From: a virus
Strand: one strand, 5' to 3'
DNA length: 36,642 nt
IMG/VR virus record: IMGVR_UViG_3300035182_000146
Span: 1 to 36,642 of that record
Position numbers and translations under genes: made by a program. Shown piece after piece: positions 1 through 22,687 of the stretch (the first letter of the stretch is position 1; each line of letters starts with the position of its first letter). The notes under the pieces were generated by a model. That model was not told the DNA's origin. It saw only the letters and a list, made by a program, of their open reading frames with translations, and did no database searches.

Positions 1-353
1 GTTGAGCGAGGATTAAACAGATGCCTTGCTGAACCAGCCATAATCGCCCGTAGACATTGCGGTCGCCGGGGACGTGTACGAACCGCCAGAACTGGTGGCA
101 GAGAAGGTGCCAGCATTGACGGTACATACAGTGGTGGAAGCGGTGATCGCGCCACCAGCCTTGGCGAACACGTAGATCTTGCCGTCCGAGCCAAAAACTT
201 CCGTGCCAACGGCATGGGGAACCACCCGAGCGCCGGACGAGATATCAGAGGCCAGTACGGTATTCACCAAATCGATGCCATGAATATTTACGATAGGATA
301 TGCCATGTGATCCTCCTATTAGGCGATCAACGCGCCGCAGAATTGCGGACCGT
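1..353. repeat. Left copy of an imperfect terminal repeat
   Basis: Bases 1-353 match 36290-36642 at a constant offset of 36289 with no gaps. I count 17 substitutions, 15 of them between 127 and 217. Bases 1-126 are identical. The repeat holds the complete 97-codon post-capsid gene and the last codons of the capsid gene. It is either the overlap of a circular or circularly permuted genome assembled from a mixed population, or a real diverged duplication. Confidence 0.9.
13..306 (-). CDS. Small post-capsid virion protein, copy A (possible capsid decoration protein)
   Basis: A 97-residue protein, rich in Gly, Ser, Thr and Val, with no predicted membrane segment; the composition suggests beta structure. 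It begins 12 bp after the major capsid gene and has a near-ideal Shine-Dalgarno (AGGAGG, about 6 nt before ATG), as expected for a protein made in large amounts. Many podoviruses encode a capsid cement or decoration protein next to the capsid gene, so that role is inferred from position and composition; no specific family was recognised. A second full copy at 36302-36595 differs at five residues (V33I, I43L, T55P, T58S, V59T). Confidence 0.75.
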   Translation of the reverse strand: MAYPIVNIHGIDLVNTVLASDISSGARVVPHAVGTEVFGSDGKIYVFAKAGGAITASTTVCTVNAGTFSATSSGGSYTSPATAMSTGDYGWFSKASV

Positions 354-4677: not shown

Positions 4678-5087
4678 CAGTTTCCTACTACGTTTGTAAT
4701 CTCACTTAGATATGCCTCACAGGTCACGGCCTGGCCAGTATTGCCGGTGATCTGTACTTCAATATGCATGATGGCCTGGTCGATTGGGATCGAAAATTCG
4801 GACACGGCATTGGCTACGGTGCCCCCACCCAATGGCCCAACATGGGTTTTCCAATCCGTACCGGCCACGGCGGCGGCTGGTGTCGCACCGGAGTTGTGCG
4901 CAATCAGGACAGTCGCTGTCGCCTGTGCCGTTGGTCCAGTCGCCCCGTTGGTGATTTTGATGGTCAACTGGCCACCATTTGCCACACGCTGATCAAGTGT
5001 CCCAAACGTGGTGGCTCCTGCTGCATTGCTGGTTCCAATGGCAATCAGGGTCCGTGGCGTTTTCGTGGTGGTGAATGTGGTTGTCAT
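4677..5087 (-). CDS. Small beta-rich virion protein
   Basis: A 136-residue protein rich in Thr, Ala, Gly and Val with alternating hydrophobic residues, consistent with a beta-sandwich surface protein. No family was recognised with confidence. I chose the ATG at 5087 rather than a longer reading from 5117, because it overlaps the upstream stop in an ATGA arrangement and gives the Thr-rich N-terminus typical of such proteins. It belongs to the cluster of small head or fibre genes between portal and scaffold. Confidence 0.6.
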   Translation of the reverse strand: MTTTFTTTKTPRTLIAIGTSNAAGATTFGTLDQRVANGGQLTIKITNGATGPTAQATATVLIAHNSGATPAAAVAGTDWKTHVGPLGGGTVANAVSEFSIPIDQAIMHIEVQITGNTGQAVTCEAYLSEITNVVGN

Positions 5088-5515
5088 ACCTGCCAGACTC
5101 CGTTCTCCGACCAGCACAGCGCATTGATCTGGTCAACGCTGACAGAGGACGGTTTGACAGCCAGTCCCAAAAGCGCATCACGTTCGGGCACGGTAAACAG
5201 GCCCGGAGTCATCGAAGCTATCCAACCACGTAATGCACTCTCGCCAAAATTGATCCCGGTCGGGTCGTTGTAGAGCCTATTCGTGATTGCCTTGACCGAG
5301 CGCGAGGCGGTTGCGGCCTGATCGAGTTTGGTTAAGATCGAATCCGACATCTCCGTCGATCCGGTCGATGCCACCAAATCAGCCACCAGCCCTCGATCCG
5401 TAAGCCAGTAGTCGGAAACAGCGGTCCTGCCCACGTTTAGGGCGGCAGCGATCTGTGCGGTATCTTCGGCCGCCAGCATCTCCGTAGGCAATGCCCTTAT
5501 CTCATCAATCAGCAT
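5084..5515 (-). CDS. Conserved phage protein of unknown function
   Basis: A 143-residue, mostly helical protein. The N-terminal half (AEDTAQIAAALNVGRTAVSD) and the later helical part (SVKAITNRLYNDPTGINFG) resemble a hypothetical protein frequently found beside phage virion genes. The AALNVGRTAVSDY stretch could be mistaken for a helix-turn-helix, but context argues for a virion or assembly role. It overlaps the neighbouring genes at both ends: 11 bp with the membrane protein gene and ATGA with the next. Function unknown. Confidence 0.6.
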   Translation of the reverse strand: MLIDEIRALPTEMLAAEDTAQIAAALNVGRTAVSDYWLTDRGLVADLVASTGSTEMSDSILTKLDQAATASRSVKAITNRLYNDPTGINFGESALRGWIASMTPGLFTVPERDALLGLAVKPSSVSVDQINALCWSENGVWQV

Positions 5516-5690
5516 TTCTATCCTCGGGTTTCGATGTCTCGCGCCAGGCCAGATACTCGGGTATCGAAATCAGCACAATATAGGCCACGATGGCAACGGA
5601 CCAGCTTAGCCATACCAAGATCGCACCGGCCAGGACGAGGGTTATCATTCCCCACTCGCGCTTGTACCTGTCGAGCTGATGGCGGTGCAT
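5505..5690 (-). CDS. Small membrane protein
   Basis: A 61-residue protein with a strongly hydrophobic middle (MITLVLAGAILVWLSWSVAI continuing to about residue 43), forming one long or two short membrane segments, and charged ends. The first ATG at 5690 overlaps the preceding stop as TAATG, so I kept it; an internal Met at residue 15 is an alternative start. Tight packing between virion genes suggests a real gene. No homolog was recognised. Confidence 0.5.
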   Translation of the reverse strand: MHRHQLDRYKREWGMITLVLAGAILVWLSWSVAIVAYIVLISIPEYLAWRETSKPEDRNAD

Positions 5691-6085
5691 TACGCACCAG
5701 AAGCCGTCACCGTCAGACTGGTAAAGGTGCAGGCCTGGCCGGAATTGATAGCCGTATTGGTGAGGATCATGTCAGTGCCAGACGTTCCGCAAGTGCCCTG
5801 GACTACAGCGGTGCCGCCGGATGTATTGATCCGGAAATAGCCTGCTGTTCCTGTCGCAGCGGCGTTTACCCCAGCCACCGAAGAGGCCGTAAGAACCCCA
5901 CTGGATACCGTGCCGAACTGTGTGGCATTCCCAGTGAATTGAACCAGCAGCGTCCCGGTCACCGATGCGGCGACGTTAGCAGGAGCCGCGCCGCTATAGA
6001 TGATTATCTGCGCGCTCGTCCCGATATCGGTATTGAGTTGCGTCATCGCGTTGGTGCGATGTGTCGTTGAATACTGGATGGCCAT
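5690..6085 (-). CDS. Conserved phage virion protein
   Basis: A 131-residue protein. Its N-terminus (MAIQYSTTHRTNAMTQLN) and the following IIIYSGAAPAN match the start of a widespread phage protein family in which an N-terminal helix bearing R-N-A-M is followed by K/I-I-Y-(S/T)-G strands and a Gly/Thr-rich beta domain. Members lie in head or tail gene clusters; their exact role is not known to me. The start overlaps the portal stop as TAATG. Confidence 0.65.
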   Translation of the reverse strand: MAIQYSTTHRTNAMTQLNTDIGTSAQIIIYSGAAPANVAASVTGTLLVQFTGNATQFGTVSSGVLTASSVAGVNAAATGTAGYFRINTSGGTAVVQGTCGTSGTDMILTNTAINSGQACTFTSLTVTASGA

Positions 6086-8313
6086 TATTGAACTCCTATT
6101 ATTTTCGCATCAGGGCCGCGCATGATTGGCCGCCCATTGATTGATCTGGCTTTACCGTCCGGTCCGCGCTCGATGATTTTGGGTTGGGTTGTGATTTCCA
6201 GCAACTGCTCCAGCTTTTCCAATACCGCGGGGATGGCGCTGCTCTCGTATTGCTCTGGCGTCGGCTCCAATTCTGCTCCGTCTGGAACGGCCTTCGCTGA
6301 TGCGCCGATCTGTGCAACGGCAATGCGCGTTGCGGCATCGAGTTCAGCTTTCCAGCGGTCGAAATCTTGTTGCTGTGCGGCCAGTTGCTGCTGCATCTGC
6401 ACGGCCATCTGCTTCATGGTCGCGTCGTGCTGGCGCCTCAGCTCTTCCTGCTGCGCATCCACCTGCATCTGCTGCTGCTTGATCTGGAGATCAGCCTGGA
6501 GTCTAGATTGCTCGATCTGCGTTTCTGCTTGAGCCTTGAACTGCTCAACCTGTTGCTCGTGCTGAATCTGGGCCTGCTGCTGTTGTTGTGCGGCTTGCGC
6601 CTTTACCATCTCCGGATTCGGAGCTTGTTGCTGAGGCTGCGATTTATACTGCTCAGCCGCTTCGTCGATCACGCCTTCCATCGTCTTGCCGACCTTGAAG
6701 CCGGCCACGCCGAACTTAAGCAGTTCAATCGCTACCGGAATAATCTGCGGAGCCTGAGCAGCGCCCTGGACGATCTTCTCGATAAACGCGGATGTCGCGC
6801 TTAAGAAGTCCATCCGATCCTGCTTTTCCTGCTGTTCGTCGGCGAAGACCAACGTGTCAGCAGCCACATCAACACGGAAATTCCTGGACACATCGTTGCG
6901 CAGTAGCTGCATCGCCATCGGCAGCATTTGCTGATCTACAGGAGATAGTTGGTCAGCCCCGGCCATCCTGAGGATGGTCATGTCGTCGAAGTGTTTGCAG
7001 ATGATTTGAGCCTTCAAGCGTAGAAGGCTCGTTGCGTACTGGCTCACCTCGTCCTGGTATACCTTGAGCCGGAGTGTCGCGTAGTTGTTTTTTATGTTCT
7101 GCGCGGTCGCCGTCTCACTGGCCTGCGTCTCGCCTCGCAGAATATCGCTGATTCCGGTGATCTCGTAAATCTGGCTCTTAATCTGCCCGAATGCCGTATA
7201 GGCATCGTTCAGGGCACGGGCAATGGGCGCAATTTCAACTAGCTGGATCGATCCCGATAGCCCATTCTTCTCGGCGAATGCACCCCAGTTTTTGACGGGC
7301 AATAGTTCTGTATTTCCGCCTTCCTTGAACAGCCTGGAAAGCTCCGGAATGGAAGAATCATAGACGCCGAATACTTTGAGCGCCTTAATCAGTCCATCAA
7401 TCCGGTCAGAGAGGATGTCTAATTGCGCGGCCTGGTCCTGGTACAAAGTAAAGTCCGGGACCGGGACCAGCGAGTCATTTGTTAGAGTGGCGTAAAGCGG
7501 ACGCGGGCATGGGAAGAAACCCTCTAATTCGAGCGGGTCGTCCTTCTCATCCACAAACTTCCCGAGCGATTTTGAGAGCCAGAACACGCGCCCGGCTTCT
7601 TTGTCCCATATCTCAATGATCAGGGCGCGTTTGTCCACTCCGTCAGGGTCGGTGTTCTTTGTATCGGTTGGCGAAGCATCTAATGGGATACGGTCAGCAT
7701 CCTCCCCGAATCGCTCCTGTAGTGCCTGGCGGGTCAGGTAGACTTTTCGCCATACAATCGAGACTTCTTCCCACGTCCGCGCAACTGAATGGCCAAAATC
7801 CTTCCAGTGCACGTAATCAGTCGGCGCGGCCTCAAAATCAAGTTGTTCAGAGACAGGATTCTCGGCCTCAACATCTTCCGTGATCTCTGTTTCAATGTCC
7901 GATTGGGTGAAGGTTGGCTCATAACGTACCCATGCAATCCCCCGCCCACCTAGAAAACGGTCATAGACCGACTGGCGCAGGGTCTGCCTGTAGTCCGCAT
8001 AGTGCTCAATTTCAAACTCAAGCGCGCGTTCAAGAATCAGGCACGCAACCCGCCCAACTGGGTCATTGTCTCGGTGCAATCTCGAAACATCGGGCTGCGG
8101 AATCCTAGAGAAGGTAGACGCCTTGAGGGTCTGGACATTAGACCAAAGCACGTTAAATCGTGAGCCGTCAGAATCACGAATATTCCTGGACTCGTCCTTG
8201 TAACGGTCCACGATCTTCTTTACGCGCCCCTCCCATTTCTTGAACTCGCGCTCGTACTGGGAGATGTGGTTGAGGTAATACTCAACCGACTGGGGCATTA
8301 CAACGTCAGTCAT
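6085..8313 (-). CDS. Portal protein, P22-like
   Basis: A 742-residue protein directly after terminase and one small gene, as expected for the portal that forms the dodecameric ring at the capsid vertex and the channel for DNA. The N-terminal part (YLNHISQYEREFKKWEGRVK; RFNVLWSNVQTLKASTFSR) and central wing/stem region match P22-type portals. Residues about 565-650 are extremely Gln-rich and helical, resembling the long C-terminal barrel helix of P22 gp1. Its large size fits that class. The ATG at 8313 overlaps the previous stop codon (TGATG); an internal Met at residue 6 is an alternative start. Confidence 0.85.
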   Translation of the reverse strand: MTDVVMPQSVEYYLNHISQYEREFKKWEGRVKKIVDRYKDESRNIRDSDGSRFNVLWSNVQTLKASTFSRIPQPDVSRLHRDNDPVGRVACLILERALEFEIEHYADYRQTLRQSVYDRFLGGRGIAWVRYEPTFTQSDIETEITEDVEAENPVSEQLDFEAAPTDYVHWKDFGHSVARTWEEVSIVWRKVYLTRQALQERFGEDADRIPLDASPTDTKNTDPDGVDKRALIIEIWDKEAGRVFWLSKSLGKFVDEKDDPLELEGFFPCPRPLYATLTNDSLVPVPDFTLYQDQAAQLDILSDRIDGLIKALKVFGVYDSSIPELSRLFKEGGNTELLPVKNWGAFAEKNGLSGSIQLVEIAPIARALNDAYTAFGQIKSQIYEITGISDILRGETQASETATAQNIKNNYATLRLKVYQDEVSQYATSLLRLKAQIICKHFDDMTILRMAGADQLSPVDQQMLPMAMQLLRNDVSRNFRVDVAADTLVFADEQQEKQDRMDFLSATSAFIEKIVQGAAQAPQIIPVAIELLKFGVAGFKVGKTMEGVIDEAAEQYKSQPQQQAPNPEMVKAQAAQQQQQAQIQHEQQVEQFKAQAETQIEQSRLQADLQIKQQQMQVDAQQEELRRQHDATMKQMAVQMQQQLAAQQQDFDRWKAELDAATRIAVAQIGASAKAVPDGAELEPTPEQYESSAIPAVLEKLEQLLEITTQPKIIERGPDGKARSINGRPIMRGPDAKIIGVQ

Positions 8314-8589: not shown

Positions 8590-9924
8590 TCAAATCCTTG
8601 TGTTAGTTATACGCCGCTCGGTGGCGTACAGTTCGTCCAGTGTCACGGTGTTGGCCCCGACGACGATGCCGCGTATTGGGTCATCTGGCGCTTTAGGCTT
8701 TTGTTCTTCTCGCCATGCCACTGCCAGATACCTAAAGGCGTCTGAGGCGTGCGAGGTCCAGTCGTGGCGGGGCTTATCCTTGAACGCCTTCTTGTCCTCG
8801 TCCCATTCTCGCTGGTATTGCTTGATGGCCTCTATGCCGTCTCTGCAATTGGCAGAGTCAATCCAGATGCGAGGGAACGCAGCGCGGGCTGCTTGAATTC
8901 CGTCCAGCATGTCGAGATGCGGCGTAATCGACAGGTGCTTGTGGCCAAGGAAGTTCGAGAGTTGTTCAATGATCGACTTGCCACCGGAGGCAAGCGTCTT
9001 GGCTCTCGCGTCATGCGGAAGGTAGTGCGTGCCGTATTTGTATGGCTTCCCGGCGACTAAGTTCCCATAATGCTCTATGTCTCGCCCCGATGCGGCGTAA
9101 TAGTCGATTATGTGTATTTCCCCCCCGATTACCTGGTAGAACCATATCGCCGTATCATCAGAGAATCCAAGGTCCCACGCGGTATGCACTGGGAACGGCT
9201 TTTGCCATTCAACCTTTGTAATCCTGCCAGCGACTTCAGCCTGGTATATTTCGCGCCCCCATACCGCGCCAGGAATAGCGGCGTCGAAATCGCACTCCAT
9301 TTCCTGCCGCCAAGCGTCTTCGTCCAGCTCGGCTTTAAGCGCATCGTATTCGGACTGTGGGAGTATTCCGCTGGCCGATGCCGTGATCTTGAGGGCAAGC
9401 CATTCAGGATCATTCTCAGCGCGGCTGTATGTTTCCCAGAACAGGTTTCTACCTTTTGGCGTGCCAATGATGATTGCCTTGCCCTGCCGATCCGCCAATG
9501 CGGGCCGTATAACGTAGCTCCATACGCTTGGTCGCCAGTCCCCATATTCATCGGCGATCAAGAAGTCAAAGAATAGACCACGCAGCGCATCGGCATTGTC
9601 CGCGCCGTAAAGCTGGATTCTCGCTCCGTTCGGATAATCAATCCGAAGTTCGGATTCGTTAATCGATACATTCGGCACCACTGATGAATATCGCTTCAGG
9701 TAATCCCATGCAACACTTTTGGCCTGGCGGTAAAACGGGGCCAGATATGCACCACGGAAATCTGACTTAGTGGTAGTTAACGCTTCGCGCAGAAGGTGAT
9801 TGATACACGCAACAGTCTTGCCTGCCCGTCGGTGGGCGACGATACAGGCCCATCGTTTTTTTGTGTTGTGGAGCGGCTTAAAAGCATCTCTCGGCTTATA
9901 CGGTATTTGTATCAGCTTTGCCAT
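8590..9924 (-). CDS. terL: Terminase large subunit
   Basis: A 444-residue packaging motor. The ATPase domain has a Walker A-like HRRAGKT (residues 31-37), Walker B FLIADE (121-126) and coupling motif GTPKG (154-158). The nuclease domain has DLGFSDDT (251-258), YLPHDA (301-306) and HASDAFRY (392-399), giving the expected acidic residues. It powers DNA translocation into the procapsid and cuts the concatemer. The gene overlaps the small-subunit candidate by 13 bp and has no Shine-Dalgarno of its own, so coupling is likely. Full length, no damage seen. Confidence 0.93.
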   Translation of the reverse strand: MAKLIQIPYKPRDAFKPLHNTKKRWACIVAHRRAGKTVACINHLLREALTTTKSDFRGAYLAPFYRQAKSVAWDYLKRYSSVVPNVSINESELRIDYPNGARIQLYGADNADALRGLFFDFLIADEYGDWRPSVWSYVIRPALADRQGKAIIIGTPKGRNLFWETYSRAENDPEWLALKITASASGILPQSEYDALKAELDEDAWRQEMECDFDAAIPGAVWGREIYQAEVAGRITKVEWQKPFPVHTAWDLGFSDDTAIWFYQVIGGEIHIIDYYAASGRDIEHYGNLVAGKPYKYGTHYLPHDARAKTLASGGKSIIEQLSNFLGHKHLSITPHLDMLDGIQAARAAFPRIWIDSANCRDGIEAIKQYQREWDEDKKAFKDKPRHDWTSHASDAFRYLAVAWREEQKPKAPDDPIRGIVVGANTVTLDELYATERRITNTRI

Positions 9925-10559: not shown

Positions 10560-11396
10560 TTAGCCGTCATAGCAGCCGCAATCCATTTCTGGCGTTCCAG
10601 CATCCGAAAACAAACACAACTCCGCATCAGACTTAGCTACGAAGTCCCGCCATGAGAATGTCCGGCCTAGCCCGCTTCGGCTTTGTGGCGCTTGCCCCTC
10701 TCCAGCCATTGCTCTTCGCTCCATTTCGAGCACAGCCGAAAACATTTCCGGGTAGTTCTTTCGCAACGCCAGAATCTCGTGCTTCTTCATCGACGGACAC
10801 ATAACGCACGAAGATTTTCCCGGTTGAGGAAGGCCAGCGCGTGCAATTGCTTCAACGCACTCGTCACGCCCCCAATCCCACTCAATCAATGGAAACCGTA
10901 ACCTAGTCGGTTGAGTGTCCGCTAGGGCCGTCGCTCTTTCGTATCTCGGCAGTTCGTCGGCGTCGTACCCAACCAACCGAACAATTTGCGACAACTCAAT
11001 CCCTAGCGTTTCGGCAAGCCTACGGTTCCACCTGTTTTGTGGCTCTACTTTCCACTTCAGTGAGCACGACCCGTTACCGTAGGCCTTTGATGGCAAACGC
11101 CCAAGGCGGACGCATTCGTTGAACAAACTCCCGTCGGAAACCATCATCGGCTGCGTCGGTTTAACCACAGTTATCGTCGGAAACCCAACGGACTCACACC
11201 AAGCATTAACCGCTTCCATGTGGCGGTAGGTATATTCCTGCTCAGACCCTGTGTCTGCGAATGTGCAGTAGTCAGGGCGCTCTCCGCGCTCATATAGTCC
11301 AATCAGCATTGCGGTGCTGTTTGTGCCGCCCCCATAACTCATTACCGTAATAGTCGGCGCTGGCGGCACGGTGGCGTTGCTCTCGGTTTCTTTCAA
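10560..11396 (-). CDS. PAPS reductase-family (PP-loop) protein
   Basis: A 278-residue protein of the adenine-nucleotide alpha-hydrolase fold. The PP-loop is SYGGGTNS (residues 20-27), a variant of the usual SGGKDS, followed by a helix and CTFADTGSEQEYTYRH. Cysteines occur at 111 (GSCSLKWK) and as CVMC at 197-200, which could hold an Fe-S cluster or metal. Phage members of this family are suspected of roles in nucleic acid or sulfur chemistry; the substrate is unknown. The start is TTG at 11396 with GGAG about 6 nt upstream. The gene begins right after an attC-like element and its own stop TAA lies in GGCTAACGC, resembling the left arm of another. Confidence 0.75.
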   Translation of the reverse strand: MKETESNATVPPAPTITVMSYGGGTNSTAMLIGLYERGERPDYCTFADTGSEQEYTYRHMEAVNAWCESVGFPTITVVKPTQPMMVSDGSLFNECVRLGRLPSKAYGNGSCSLKWKVEPQNRWNRRLAETLGIELSQIVRLVGYDADELPRYERATALADTQPTRLRFPLIEWDWGRDECVEAIARAGLPQPGKSSCVMCPSMKKHEILALRKNYPEMFSAVLEMERRAMAGEGQAPQSRSGLGRTFSWRDFVAKSDAELCLFSDAGTPEMDCGCYDG

Positions 11397-11421: not shown

Positions 11422-11492
11422 CGGCTAACACGTCGCTCAACACGGACGCAGGCGATAAATCCGCCTAACGCCGGTTTGCTAGGAGTTAGAGG
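11422..11492 (-). other. attC-like folded element behind the antitermination-like gene
   Basis: On the minus strand the element starts with CTCTAAC, containing the TAA stop of the upstream gene, and ends with GTTAGCC. CTAAC and GTTAG pair. Inside are AAACCGG and CCGTGTTGAG, which pair with a bulge, and a central AGGCG/CGCCT hairpin. The right half, GTCCGTGTTGAGCGACG then GTTAG, is very like the L'/R' half of integron attC sites. The PAPS-reductase-like gene follows directly. Confidence 0.6.
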
Positions 11493-11857
11493 TTATTACT
11501 CAATCTGAGTTGCATCCTGACCAGCCCAATGCACTTTGACGCGGCACAATGGGCGCGCTCATAAAATGTATCTCGCCCAATTCCCATATCTGCGGCGATT
11601 GCCTTGATCGGTTTAATCTTAATCCCGCAGTAGATGATAACGAACGGGACAAACTCGCCAACATCGAGACTTGACACGGCAAGATTAAATGCATTGAGTT
11701 CTGCGGACATAGGGCCATCGGGTTCTCTGCCGGTCTTGCTTGGCATGAATTGAGCAAGAATATTTCGCTGTAAAGGTGGACCTAGAAACCTACGGCTATC
11801 GAGCCACTGAACCCAGTCCTGTGCCATCTGATAAGCGGCCTCGTTACGATGCGCCAT
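11486..11857 (-). CDS. Putative antitermination/late-gene regulator
   Basis: A 123-residue protein. The N-terminus (AAYQMAQDWVQWLDSRRFLG) and the C-terminal helix-turn-helix-like part (IKAIAADMGIGRDTFYERAH) match a protein common in proteobacterial phages just upstream of the packaging genes, often annotated as antitermination or Q-like. Position between NinG and terminase fits lambda Q. The ATG at 11857 has AAGGGGA at 5 nt. The stop codon lies inside an attC-like element. Biochemical function is inferred from context only. Confidence 0.6.
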   Translation of the reverse strand: MAHRNEAAYQMAQDWVQWLDSRRFLGPPLQRNILAQFMPSKTGREPDGPMSAELNAFNLAVSSLDVGEFVPFVIIYCGIKIKPIKAIAADMGIGRDTFYERAHCAASKCIGLVRMQLRLSNNL

Positions 11858-16460: not shown

Positions 16461-17309
16461 ATGAGCAACGATATAGCAGTAGTCAACGAACAACGCGCAC
16501 TAACAGCCGGAGAAATCCGGTCTCATGTAAATCGAGTTCAGGAAGTCATGAAGGCCGTGATGCTGCGCGGCACGCACTATGGAATTATACCTGGCAGCAA
16601 GAAGCCGAGCCTTTATAAGCCGGGTGCTGAGGTTCTTTGTGTGACCTTCCGTGTCGCTCCTAGCTACAAAATCGAAGAACTTTCCACAGATGATTGCGTA
16701 CGTTACCGGATTACCTGCGTAGGAACACATCAGACCACTGGAATGGTGCTCGGAGAAGGCGTTGGCGAATGCTCGTCAAACGAGGAAAAATACAAGTGGC
16801 GACGGACCATCTGCCAGGAAGAATATGACAATACTCCGGCTGATCGAAAGCGCATCAAATACGGTAAAGACGATGGCAAAGTCGAGAAGACCCAACAGAT
16901 TCGAACCGAACCAGCAGACATTGCCAACACCGTTCTTAAAATGGCAGTAAAACGCGCCCAGGTAGCCATGACGCTGAATGTCACAGCAGCTTCTGACTGC
17001 TTCACCCAGGATATTGAAGACCTTCCGCCCGAGCTTCTTGAGATCGAGCGCAACCGGGAACAGGCCGGGAAACCTCCCGAAGAAAAGCCGCCCTACCCTA
17101 CCGCCGAATTTGAAAAGAACATCGGAATATGGCACAAGGCTATCAAGGAAGGGCGCGCATCGGCAGAACAAATCATCGCCCGATCGTCCACCAAGTACAT
17201 GCTTTCTGATGAGCAGAAATCCGCCATCAGAGCGCCAATTGAAGAAGCACCGGAAGCCGCGCCAACTAATGGAGAATGGGTTGCCGATTTTGAAGGAGCA
17301 GAAAAATGA
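16461..17309 (+). CDS. Conserved phage protein, probable recombination partner of YqaJ
   Basis: A 282-residue protein. The segment RGTHYGIIPGSKKPSLYKPG (about 36-55) followed by AEVLCVTFRV is a strong signature of a phage family regularly encoded beside exonuclease or recombinase genes. Residues 100-150 carry YKWRR and a charged region; DIANTVLKMAVKRAQVAMTL follows near residue 155. I do not recall a proven activity. Overlapping the YqaJ nuclease by ATGA suggests a joint role, perhaps single-strand annealing, which is inference. Start ATG 16461 has a GGAG ribosome site. Confidence 0.65.
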   Translation: MSNDIAVVNEQRALTAGEIRSHVNRVQEVMKAVMLRGTHYGIIPGSKKPSLYKPGAEVLCVTFRVAPSYKIEELSTDDCVRYRITCVGTHQTTGMVLGEGVGECSSNEEKYKWRRTICQEEYDNTPADRKRIKYGKDDGKVEKTQQIRTEPADIANTVLKMAVKRAQVAMTLNVTAASDCFTQDIEDLPPELLEIERNREQAGKPPEEKPPYPTAEFEKNIGIWHKAIKEGRASAEQIIARSSTKYMLSDEQKSAIRAPIEEAPEAAPTNGEWVADFEGAEK

Positions 17310-18745
17310 TAGAAATAAACGAATCCCAAGGAAGTGAAGCGTGGCTAGCCCACCGTGCAAAGTGCCTGAATGCCAGCGACGCGCCGGCCATGATGGGCGT
17401 CAGCCCGTACAAGAGCCGCGCCGATCTTCTCAAAGAGAAGTCTACCGGGATTTCGCCCGAGATTGACGCCGAGACCCAAGCCAGGTTCGACCGTGGCCAT
17501 GAAGTCGAAGAAATGGCCCGGCCCATAGCAGAGCGCATCATAGATAGCGAACTGTTCCCGATTGTCGCCACCGATGACACCGGCAAGTATTCCGCAAGCT
17601 CAGATGGATCGACGATGCTCTGTGATATCGGATTCGAACATAAATCATGGAACGAATCGCTGGCGGAAACGGTAGCAACTGGCCACGTTCCAGAGTCTCA
17701 CAAATGGCAGCTTGTACATCAACAAATGGTTTTCGGGTTTGAGAAGGTCCTTTTCATGGTATCCAATGGAACTGAAGAAAAGATGGTCTATTGCTGGTTT
17801 AAGGCGACTGATGAAGAAATTAAGCGCCTGCGCGCCGGTTGGGATCAATTCGAGGCCGACCTGGCGGCATACCAGCACGTCGAAGCCAAGCCCGAGGCCA
17901 TAGGCCGAGCACCGGATCAACTTCCTTCCCTGCACATCGAAGTAACTGGCATGGTCACCGCCTCGAACCTGGATGAGTTCAAGGGAACCGCGCTGGCCAT
18001 GTTCCGTGGAATAAAAACCGACCTGCAGACCGACCAAGATTTCGCCGACGCCGAGAAGGCCATCAAGTTCTGCAAGGATGCCGAAGAACGGCTGGAATCG
18101 GCCAAGTCCCATGCACTGAGCCAGACCGAGAGCATCGATGAGCTTTTCCGCGCCATCGACGCCATCAAGGAAGAGGCCCGGACGGTTCGACTCAAGCTGG
18201 ACAAGCTAGTCAAGGTTGAGAAGGAAAACCGAAAGGCCGAGATCATAAAGAAGGCAATGACCGAATACCGAGAGCATATCGATGTCCTAAACAAGCGGAT
18301 CGGCGGCCAGTGGATGCCGGCCATCGCACCGGCCTTTGCCGAGTCCATAAAGGGCCTAAAAAGCCTGGACAGTATGCTCGACAAGATCGGAACCACTCTA
18401 GCCAATGCCAAGATCGAGGCGAACGAAACAGCCATGCGCATCGCCTACAATAAGAGCGCAGTTGGCGAGGATATGGCTCTATTCCCGGATTGGCCGAATG
18501 TCTGCGCCAAGTCAGAGGAGGACTTCTCCGCCATGCTATCCATGCGCCTCAACCAGCGTAAAGAGTCCGAAGAAAAACGGCTTGCGGAAAGGCGTGAAGT
18601 GAAAGACGCGACGACGGAAGCGATGCAGGAGACTGACCTTCCGCAGAAGCCGGACCAGTGGATTGTGATCGACCCGCAAGGCCAGACGCACAAGGGAACC
18701 TTAGAGCAGATGACTCGGCTCTTGATGCAACAGCACCCGTTCTAA
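17306..18745 (+). CDS. YqaJ-family viral exonuclease
   Basis: A 479-residue protein. The N-terminal nuclease domain (about 1-215) has the lambda Exo/YqaJ pattern: NASDAPAMMGVSPYKSRADL, GHEVEE (64-69), SSDGST (98-103), FEHK (110-113) and QLVHQQ (135-140), giving the expected catalytic Asp, Glu, Lys and Gln. It would resect double-stranded ends to feed annealing. Residues about 230-400 are a long helical, coiled-coil-like extension, and the C-terminus is a separate small module. Overlap with the previous gene by ATGA indicates co-expression. Confidence 0.85.
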   Translation: MIEINESQGSEAWLAHRAKCLNASDAPAMMGVSPYKSRADLLKEKSTGISPEIDAETQARFDRGHEVEEMARPIAERIIDSELFPIVATDDTGKYSASSDGSTMLCDIGFEHKSWNESLAETVATGHVPESHKWQLVHQQMVFGFEKVLFMVSNGTEEKMVYCWFKATDEEIKRLRAGWDQFEADLAAYQHVEAKPEAIGRAPDQLPSLHIEVTGMVTASNLDEFKGTALAMFRGIKTDLQTDQDFADAEKAIKFCKDAEERLESAKSHALSQTESIDELFRAIDAIKEEARTVRLKLDKLVKVEKENRKAEIIKKAMTEYREHIDVLNKRIGGQWMPAIAPAFAESIKGLKSLDSMLDKIGTTLANAKIEANETAMRIAYNKSAVGEDMALFPDWPNVCAKSEEDFSAMLSMRLNQRKESEEKRLAERREVKDATTEAMQETDLPQKPDQWIVIDPQGQTHKGTLEQMTRLLMQQHPF

Positions 18746-20988: not shown

Positions 20989-21200
20989 CATGGGAAGTGG
21001 AAGACATCACCCCTGGCCGGCGCTACAGCAAGAAAGGCATCGGCGAGACGTGGATCATTGGCTACATATCTGACATGGACGGGCCGGCGAGATATGTCTC
21101 AGTTTCATCCCACGACGGCATGGTTTCCGAGGTGCGCACCAAAGAGAAGTTGGCCCAGGTGCTGACCGAAAACGGATACCTTCCGGTAGAACTGCTGTGA
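20979..21200 (+). CDS. Small protein of unknown function
   Basis: A 73-residue protein starting MQVTWEVEDITPGRRYSKKG, with alternating strands and a C-terminal KLAQVLTENGYLPVEL helix. Opening W-E-V-E-D-I is seen in small phage accessory proteins. ATG 20979 has AGGAGAG upstream; the longer frame from 20913 does not. An attC-like element begins three bases after its stop codon. Confidence 0.55.
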   Translation: MQVTWEVEDITPGRRYSKKGIGETWIIGYISDMDGPARYVSVSSHDGMVSEVRTKEKLAQVLTENGYLPVELL

Positions 21201-21202
21201 GG

Positions 21203-21269
21203 CATGACACCTGAATACATGGGCGATGCGCGGCTTCGTCGCCTGCGTCCTGTGGACTGACGTGTTATG
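21203..21269 (+). other. attC-like element 1 (most diverged)
   Basis: Left arm CATGACAC (21203-21210) pairs with right arm GTGTTATG (21262-21269), one G-T wobble. Between them are GGCGA/TCGCC arms and GCGTCCTGTGGACTGACG, which aligns with the right half of the minus-strand element. An 18-codon frame (21204-21260) lies inside it, but I do not consider it a gene. Confidence 0.45.
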
Positions 21270-21284
21270 AATTTCGGGGGTGAT

Positions 21285-21821
21285 ATGCCATATCTAAACG
21301 AAGACGGAACAATAGACACATTGAAAGGCTATATACGCCAATGTGACCACTGCGTGGCTATAGAAAAGGTATTTGATGAGGCCACAGACAAAGACGTAGG
21401 ACGATATGACGAAATCTACGCATTAGAAACTACGATACGAGAATTATTCAAGGGGACGAGCTGGCCAGGGGTGCCAAGAGTTTTGTGCGTTGAGTGCATG
21501 ACGAGGCTGATGCCAAACCTGTACAAGATTAGGGATGCAATTGAACTAGACATTTTCGTAAACCGACTGAAAGGAGCAATAAATGAAAAACGGAAGCAAG
21601 GAACTAAAGACCACCGACAACTTCGGACGATGCTTGCGAATGCTGCAAAAGGTGTACTCAACGGAGACTTGGACATCGAGCGTGCCACGGCGCTGCACAA
21701 GCTGGCGAAGAACATCAGCGAGAGCCTGTACAGCGAGACCAAAATAGCAATGTTCAGCCATGAGATTGGAAGCGACATCCCTAAGATGGGCGACCTACCG
21801 CTTGTCGGCAGCGACGCATAA
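21285..21821 (+). CDS. Accessory protein, possibly a frameshift fusion
   Basis: A 178-residue reading with a CDHC and a CVEC pair in the N-terminal 110 residues, suggesting a zinc fold, and a C-terminal part (LDIERATALHKLAKNISESL then YSETKIAMFS) resembling a separate small phage protein family. A strong ribosome site (AAGGAG) and ATG at 21583 lie inside in another frame and encode MKNGSKELKTTDNFGR, the expected start of that second family. So two genes may have been joined by a single-base change. ATG 21285 has GGGGGTG upstream; 21267 is an alternative. The stop lies in an attC-like element. Confidence 0.5.
   Translation: MPYLNEDGTIDTLKGYIRQCDHCVAIEKVFDEATDKDVGRYDEIYALETTIRELFKGTSWPGVPRVLCVECMTRLMPNLYKIRDAIELDIFVNRLKGAINEKRKQGTKDHRQLRTMLANAAKGVLNGDLDIERATALHKLAKNISESLYSETKIAMFSHEIGSDIPKMGDLPLVGSDA
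21583..21821 (+). pseudogene. Small phage gene with a probable frameshift
   Basis: ATG 21583 follows AAGGAG at the ideal distance and gives MKNGSKELKTTDNFGR, then the natural continuation (TMLANAAKGVLNGDLDIERA and onward) is found one frame away, used by the longer reading 21285-21821. Restoring the frame near 21630 would give an approximately 80-residue protein of a common small phage type. No standard slippery heptamer was found at the point of change. Confidence 0.45.
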
Positions 21822-21876
21822 CGAAGTAACCGGCGGCCCGCTTGCGGCGCGTCCAGTTTGATGACGGTTTATGCGT
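21814..21876 (+). other. attC-like element 2
   Basis: ACGCATAA (21814-21821), which includes the upstream stop codon, pairs perfectly with TTATGCGT (21869-21876). Inside, AACCGG faces CCAGTT and a CCGC/GCGG hairpin forms the centre. The right half reads GTCCAGTTTGATGACGG then TTTATGC, close to attC right halves. Confidence 0.55.
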
Positions 21877-21930
21877 GGATTCGGAAAATGATTTGCAGAG
21901 GTGAGTTTGCAGAAGGAGGCATGTTCCACA

Positions 21931-22245
21931 ATGACAGAGATTGATGAGACAAGAGGCTTCTTGACGGTGCGCAGGCTGCACGCAACATCACAGGAAGGCA
22001 TAGAACGGGACGCTGCCCGCTACCGCTGGCTGCGCGACCGGATGGAGGTGCATTACGAAGTACCTATATCTGGCAGGGGAAACCGCGCCACGCTGGCAAT
22101 GCGCCTCGGGCACGAATTTCTGGATTGCAAAATGCCCCCGGCGGGCGGGTGGGTGGCTCAACGGTACTTCGATGAATGCCGAGACAAGTTGGATGCCGCG
22201 ATTGACGAGGCGCTTGGCTATCTGGCGATGGACGAGGCGAGATGA
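21931..22245 (+). CDS. Small phage protein with DAARYRWLRDR motif
   Basis: A 104-residue protein. ERDAARYRWLRDR near residue 28 and the C-terminal CRDKLDAAIDEALG are a signature shared by many small phage accessory proteins of unknown function. ATG 21931 follows AAGGAGG at a rather long spacing of 11 bases. It lies between two attC-like elements, together with the next small gene, which it overlaps by ATGA. Confidence 0.6.
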   Translation: MTEIDETRGFLTVRRLHATSQEGIERDAARYRWLRDRMEVHYEVPISGRGNRATLAMRLGHEFLDCKMPPAGGWVAQRYFDECRDKLDAAIDEALGYLAMDEAR

Positions 22246-22433
22246 AAACGTGCGCGACCTGCAATGCCAGCCAAAATAACACGGTAGATCGAGTGTTGCG
22301 CTGCATGCGCTGCGTGGGAAAACCGAGCGGAAACAGCAACTGGCGACCACTGGGGCATAACGCAGAGCTAGGGGGGCCGAAGCTGTCCGTGTTGAAGGCA
22401 AGGTTATGCAACAAACGGAGGAATGATGATTGA
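22242..22433 (+). CDS. Small double-CxxC protein running through an attC-like element
   Basis: A 63-residue reading with CATC and CMRC near the N-terminus, a small zinc-knuckle pattern. From about residue 37 it reads through the attC-like element, so the C-terminal half may not be functional sequence. The stop overlaps the next gene's start. Coding status of the N-terminal half is supported by the ATGA coupling to the upstream gene. Confidence 0.45.
   Translation: MKTCATCNASQNNTVDRVLRCMRCVGKPSGNSNWRPLGHNAELGGPKLSVLKARLCNKRRNDD
22355..22409 (+). other. attC-like element 3
   Basis: GCATAAC (22355-22361) and GTTATGC (22403-22409) are a perfect 7-bp inverted pair. The right half GTCCGTGTTGAAGGCAAG aligns with the other elements; the left inner arm is degenerate. 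The next gene's ribosome site begins 8 bases after it. Confidence 0.55.
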
Positions 22434-22638
22434 GAAACTGAAATGGAACGACGTGGCCAAAGGGATGACCGACGCGGGCAGCACGGTGCTTCTTTGGGTG
22501 CGAGACCCGAAACCGTTCTCGAATCCAGGCTGGATGACTGGATATCTTGACGACGGCAGTTGGCACGATAGCGAGACAGGCAGCGCACTGACCGAGATCG
22601 TCACGCATTGGGCAGACCCGAATGGCCCCGGTGCATAA
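22426..22638 (+). CDS. DUF551-like small phage protein
   Basis: A 70-residue protein. VLLWVRDPKPF, MTGYLDDGSWHD and the end IVTHWADPNGPGA follow the pattern of DUF551-type phage proteins, which end in VTHW-x-x-L/P. ATG 22426 is 4 bases after GGAGG; ATG 22423 has almost no spacing. The stop TAA is inside GCATAAC of the next element, the layout of an integron cassette. Confidence 0.6.
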   Translation: MIEKLKWNDVAKGMTDAGSTVLLWVRDPKPFSNPGWMTGYLDDGSWHDSETGSALTEIVTHWADPNGPGA

Positions 22639-22687
22639 CGCAAAAATAAGGGGCGGCGACGCCGCCTAGAATGACGGGTTAGAATGC
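22633..22687 (+). other. attC-like element 4
   Basis: GCATAAC (22633-22639), containing the upstream stop codon, faces GTTAGAATGC (22678-22687): GCAT/ATGC and AAC/GTT pair around a bulge. The centre is a perfect GGCGGC/GCCGCC hairpin with a GAC loop. The next start codon is two bases after it. Confidence 0.55.

Follow-up and report, generated by a model that had tools for sequence, protein, structure and literature searches.

Four hairpin elements spaced through the small accessory genes of a tailed phage raise the question of whether they are attC recombination sites and, if so, whether the genes between them are exchanged as integron cassettes in a genome that encodes no integron integrase. 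The DNA analyzed (hereafter, the window) is an IMG/VR virus record of 36,642 bases, and it was assigned to a tailed phage by the terminase, portal, and major head protein found with PHROGs. Our answer is that this phage very probably carries at least five attC sites, four of which form an integrase-less CALIN in an accessory operon that would be shuffled by IntI acting in trans. The conserved genes of the window are as follows.

319-1314: major head protein (PHROGs)
6085-8313: portal (PHROGs)
8590-9924, minus strand: terminase large subunit (PHROGs)
17306-18745, plus strand: conserved flank, a gene of 479 aa, used as bait for the relatives L094, L095, L096, and L097

Two models were trained on bacterial attCs only, namely the class 1 cassette attCs of plasmids and the attCs adjoining intI in betaproteobacterial contigs. 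One was a covariance model built from 15 of these attCs and scored in full without filters, and the other was an arm profile of 24 + 24 nt. The sites in the window are listed below.

21202-21270, minus strand: attC site 1 (covariance 13.1 bits, E 0.29; arm profile 16.8)
21816-21874, minus strand: attC site 2 (covariance 16.4 bits, E 0.048)
22355-22409, minus strand: attC site 3, with 7-bp perfect outer arms (covariance 17.1 bits, E 0.032; arm profile 32.9)
22633-22684, minus strand: attC site 4 (covariance 22.9 bits, E 0.0014, the best in the window)
11423-11491, plus strand: attC site 5, between the minus-strand genes 11486-11857 and 10560-11396 (covariance 13.0 bits, E 0.32)

An earlier note on this DNA had described four elements, each with a GCATAAC-type left box on or near a stop codon, a central dyad, GTCC..TTGA..G, and a GTTATGC-type right box; all of these parts were found again in sites 1 to 4, as was the perfect pairing of 7 bp that it had reported for the third element. 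The bacterial attCs have TAAC-NNNTC-NxTCAA-x-GGAC in the half that begins at the gene stop and GGTTAGCTC-nn-ACGTTAGGC in the distal half, and the window elements match this pattern on the minus strand. Over the whole window, the covariance model ranked the four elements 1 to 4 (minus strand) and site 5 fifth (plus strand), with 12.0 bits for the next background match vs 13.0 bits for site 5. The attC identity proposed in the earlier note was thereby upheld, and the covariance test that it had suggested gave scores above background with the four elements on top. No match at E ≤ 5 arose in other phage loci totaling 473 kb, which served as a control. The arm profile picked out exactly the four elements on the minus strand (scores of 32.9, 23.5, 16.8, and 11.1) and gave no score of 10 or more on the plus strand of the window. 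The maximum of this profile on 20 dinucleotide shuffles was 12.1, and therefore the weakest element (21816-21874) lies within the shuffle range and is not significant by arm score alone. The individual covariance E-values of the window sites are modest (0.0014-0.32); the weight of the attC call lies in the presence of four sites in 1.5 kb on one strand, together with the relatives, and not in single E-values.

The R'' and R' boxes (RYYYAAC / GTTRRRY) are complementary, near-perfectly in sites 2 and 3 (6-7 of 7) and imperfectly in sites 1, 4, and 5. The R' box of site 1 is degenerate (GTCATGC on the minus strand, GCATGA/C on the plus strand). The L'' and L' half-sites show the bacterial asymmetry, which assigns sites 1-4 to the minus strand and site 5 to the plus strand. 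The earlier note had read the elements on the gene strand, and this orientation has to be reversed, since the strand-specific models and the breakpoints described below both place the attC strand on minus. It follows that GTCC-x-TTGA is the reverse complement of the canonical left half and that the crossover box is the arm that had been taken as the left one. Single-strand folds compared with shuffles gave z values of −0.3 to +0.8 for sites 1-3 and about −1.4 to −2.0 for sites 4 and 5. Because the folds of sites 1-3 are no better than those of shuffles, folding by itself gives these sites no support. The raw count of GTTRRRY was uninformative (65 observed vs 55.7 expected), and the window elements matched no Rfam family. 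The covariance model had no match in the Polaribacter phage P12002L, indicating that it misses some published attCs. On sequence grounds, the four elements are genuine attC sites, with minus as their attC strand and the genes on the other one.

The absence of an integron integrase from the window, claimed in the earlier note, was corroborated, as neither TIGR02249 nor PF00589 had a match. The locus, with four attC sites within 1.5 kb and neither of these matches, is a CALIN, and without intI it is not a complete integron. The integron integrase family (TIGR02249) was also absent from 11 related records, with one weak sub-threshold match in a distant record, and the tyrosine recombinase family PF00589 was absent from 18 related records.

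Three cassette units were distinguished between sites 1 and 4.

21208-21821, plus strand: cassette unit A, the attC-1 body and gene(s) with no function assigned
21822-22360, plus strand: cassette unit B+C, the attC-2 body followed by gene 21901/21931-22245 and by the first part of ORF 22242-22433, which is Cys-rich
22361-22638, plus strand: cassette unit D, the attC-3 body and the 71-aa gene 22423-22638

Site 1 adjoins the TGA stop codon of an upstream gene whose end is at 21200; one relative (L293) has the same upstream gene with a different downstream neighbor. The ORF of unit A spans 21267-21821, within which the coding model prefers 21510-21821; its stop codon is the TAA of GCATAAC in site 2. 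Unit A occurs in seven IMG/VR loci with varied neighborhoods, and the homology stops at the attC-2 box. At site 2, the break against G003 falls at TAA/CG. The genes of unit B+C are found in L094/G001 directly after the 20690 homology and are followed by a different attC body. Homologues of unit D are present in G003, G012, and G021, each with other neighbors, and the stop codon of gene D is the TAA of GCATAAC in site 4. The accessory region of the window and protein A had no match among GenBank phages, and the label DUF551, which the earlier note had attached to these small genes, found no support from Pfam or PHROGs at threshold. The Cys-rich ORF 22242-22433 runs across the crossover into the attC-3 body; an exchange of the next unit would therefore swap its C-terminus, and the end in G001 does differ.

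Site 5, which first surfaced as a blastn self-match of the window, is also opposite to its genes. It shares approximately 89% identity across 76 bp with an attC of G024 (L304 12789-12856), a contig that encodes an integron integrase, and 92% across 62 bp with L296. The neighboring gene 10560-11396 matches phage phosphoadenosine phosphosulfate reductase (phrog_424, E 9e-31).

Relatives were collected from IMG/VR as phages with either the 479-aa flank gene or single cassettes in common with the window, which gave 19 records; the close relatives are all metagenomic contigs. The covariance model had matches in 15 of the 19, with scores up to 46 bits and a maximum of 11 sites on one contig (G012, 69 kb). 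The cassette order varies among them, A preceding D in the window and D preceding A in G003. The major head protein is common to the window, G001, and G003, and the other contigs gave no match to that family; the cassettes therefore reside in what look like different backbones, some of these contigs being fragments. An endonuclease of phrog_16945 (L096 13426-14046; about 40 IMG/VR loci) is a cassette in a few phages and lacks a detectable attC in most others, from which it appears that ordinary phage genes enter attC units. In L095 (8290-8830), an insertion with an HNH-like protein seems, by eye, to split a gene end that is intact in L096.

Breakpoints were examined in all pairs of sites on different contigs by identifying the homologous flank and checking whether the attC body went with that flank. 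When the left gene was common, including genes 96-100% identical, identity extended up to the TAA and the body then fell to background; none of the 17 pairs reached 0.75, although the pairs are not independent and represent, by our estimate, about nine separate junction changes. When the right gene was common, the body was similar in 10 of 12 pairs in the first set (0.73-0.94). In the 141-site set, it was at about 0.75 or more in 7 of 12 pairs and at background level in the other five. Between G021 and the window, for example, gene D is 87% identical and the attC body is clearly swapped. No pair shared both flanks. The position-wise profile placed the crossover inside TAACG, a 5-bp interval holding the complement of G/TT. 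Class 1 integron plasmids treated identically and read on the same attC strand gave 0 of 21 for the left and 12 of 12 for the right. Judged from these alignments, a break at TAA/C (G/TT on the attC strand), with most bodies remaining with the gene on the other side, is the signature of class 1 integrons. The earlier note had predicted breaks in relatives at the integron crossover in the right arm; the breaks do fall at a defined integron point, but this point is TAA/C in the left arm. Its suggestion that the accessory genes are shuffled as cassettes agrees with both the covariance scores and the breakpoints in related phages.

In addition, 54 pairs in the 141-site set had bodies at least 0.85 identical (85-98%) with neither flank gene in common; the bodies of G014 8221 and G027 (L308 16617) are 98% identical. 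Plain cassette exchange does not explain these pairs, which suggest that bodies may also move or be copied alone, through a second crossover at R'' or gene conversion. The attCs within one chromosomal integron are known to be alike, and the body-only pairs recall that situation.

The same pairs bear on ordinary phage mosaicism, i.e., homologous recombination between the short conserved boxes (TAACGC) of hairpin elements with no integrase, since they are an exchange that a plain integron crossover does not give. Mosaicism would also be served by the short identity that the conserved boxes supply and by the lack of an integrase in these phages. However, conservation also extends to the R'' box and the TTGA half, yet the left-homologous pairs break only on the R' side, and class 1 integrons are equally one-sided. 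We therefore regard mosaicism as an unlikely source of the junctions.

Gene polarity relative to attC was determined with a codon-usage gene call, which replaced a test based on ORF length only that was too noisy in small phage genes. In the window, seven genes lie opposite to attC and none lies in the same direction, which is not the arrangement of a standard gene cassette. Among the window's relatives, genes opposite to attC outnumbered those in the same direction by 36:1 and 43:5 (about 79:6). With a 19-base attC-arm pattern, 13 more viral contigs were found, in which the ratio was 72:1, and five viral contigs that encode an integron integrase gave 30:1. The TAA stop codon often coincides with the TAA of the R' box. 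Bacterial integrons had 10 genes opposite vs 43 in the same direction. Scored with our model and read against the annotation, MW202573 has attC on minus and genes on plus, and H101 has attC on plus and genes on minus; both are therefore also inverted, whereas TJE1 has canonical polarity. Because the attC body accompanies the downstream gene, the genes sit backwards in their cassettes.

This polarity is unlike that of bacterial cassettes, and it counts against dead remnants, i.e., bacterial cassettes captured long ago in which recombination has ceased. The window's own sites are degenerate and low-scoring, as remnants would be, but some sites of the relatives exceed 40 bits, and no attC neighborhood is kept among the relatives though the genes are 92-100% identical. 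The remnants that the earlier note had offered as one option are hence not the best reading, given the lack of pairs sharing both flanks, and we consider them improbable. It is highly improbable that the hairpins are terminators or mRNA elements at gene ends with an incidental likeness to attC: they are located on stop codons, and weak terminator activity has been ascribed to attC sites (Qi 2023, PMC9892861), but the match to bacterial attCs is strand-specific and includes both half-sites, no T-run follows the elements, and the breakpoints fall at the cleavage point. Just as improbable are assembly chimeras that mimic shuffling, because, even though every close relative is metagenomic and several come from one sample, the common segments are mostly 73-98% identical rather than 100%, the breaks fall at one defined base, and the isolate or complete phages MW202573, H101, and TJE1 carry such sites.

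In the cassette shuffling that we favor, an integron integrase would be supplied in trans by a host integron or by a co-resident phage encoding one. It would fold the bottom strand of attC, which is the coding strand in this phage, and join sites at G/TT, corresponding to TAA/C at the gene stop codon. The mobile unit would consist of an attC body and the downstream gene, so that gene and attC point in opposite ways, the reverse of bacterial cassettes. From the patterns above, we infer the recombination itself, the involvement of IntI, which IntI acts, and present-day activity. In bacteria, cassette polarity makes captured genes readable from Pc and keeps the bottom strands on the leading-strand template, which limits excision, and excision rose when the array of Vibrio cholerae was inverted (PMC11023631). 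If the phage genes run with replication, the recombinogenic strand would be on the lagging template and recombination would be raised.

It is already established that phages carry attC sites and CALINs and that IntI1 can use such sites (PMC9892861); the earlier note had mentioned reports of attC sites in phage genomes. CALINs were described in the virulent phages TJE1, PH101/H101, P12002L, and MW202573, and five of six tested phage attC sites worked with IntI1 (Qi 2023, PMC9892861). The present locus resembles these in having attC clusters in phages without an integrase, and it differs in that the present phages are different and uncultivated. The main text of Qi 2023 (PMC9892861) makes no mention of gene polarity relative to attC or of breakpoints between relatives. 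With sedentary chromosomal and class 1 integrons, the window shares the attC architecture, the G/TT crossover, and a body moving with its gene; unlike them, it has no intI and its genes are antisense to attC. The turnover of phage accessory genes is usually credited to homologous or illegitimate recombination, whereas the mechanism proposed here would be site-specific, act on one gene at a time, and operate in several backbones.

A search of IMG/VR with IntI revealed seven contigs that encode a true integron integrase (TIGR02249, 425-475 bits), as listed below in the order of G022 to G028.

G022: L300
G023: L301
G024: L303/L304
G025: L305/L306
G026: L307
G027: L308-L310
G028: L311

Six of the seven also carry head, tail, packaging, or baseplate genes, and four of those six encode a separate phage integrase; in G028, a phage-type primase was the only phage gene found. 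These contigs are a candidate source of the enzyme. Matches to attC were present near intI on six of the seven, where they lie upstream of intI, with intI and the cassette genes on the other strand, and inverted arrays were measured on five (G022, G023, G024, G025, and G027). In the IntI tree, six phage IntIs fell outside the sampled betaproteobacterial clade, the bacterial sampling being narrow, and the two phage IntIs used as queries had no counterpart of 60% identity or more among the phage and plasmid collections searched. By itself, the similarity of attC bodies (30 vs 26 closer) did not discriminate between a bacterial and a phage origin of the integrase.

In the atypical Treponema integrons, intI is transcribed towards attI (PMC3607928). 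Unlike them, the phage integrase contigs have the array upstream of intI and attC on the strand opposite to the genes. The integrons of Vibrio and Shewanella temperate phages and of P1 (PMC9892861) are similar to these contigs in that IntI is encoded in the phage genome, and the Vibrio phage integrons were described as fragments of chromosomal integrons (Qi 2023, PMC9892861). As far as could be found, the polarity rule, the natural breakpoint evidence, and the phage integrase loci are new; in the literature covered, with preprints and most subscription journals outside it, there was no report of inverted polarity, of breakpoint evidence in phages, or of this group of phage integrons.

We propose, as a tentative extension, that phages may possess an integron world of their own, in which a cassette pool antisense to attC is kept apart by polarity from the bacterial sense pool and is shuffled by phage integrases that also serve integrase-less phages in trans. 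Under the reversed polarity, capture of a bacterial cassette at such a phage site would place that cassette antisense to the operon of the phage, and a phage cassette that entered a host attI would run antisense to Pc; separate phage and bacterial cassette pools are predicted from this. An IntI-like integrase with 45% identity to phage IntI was also observed at 4680-5678 of KX853513 (L312), from virus Rctr41k of a DAMO/anammox enrichment.
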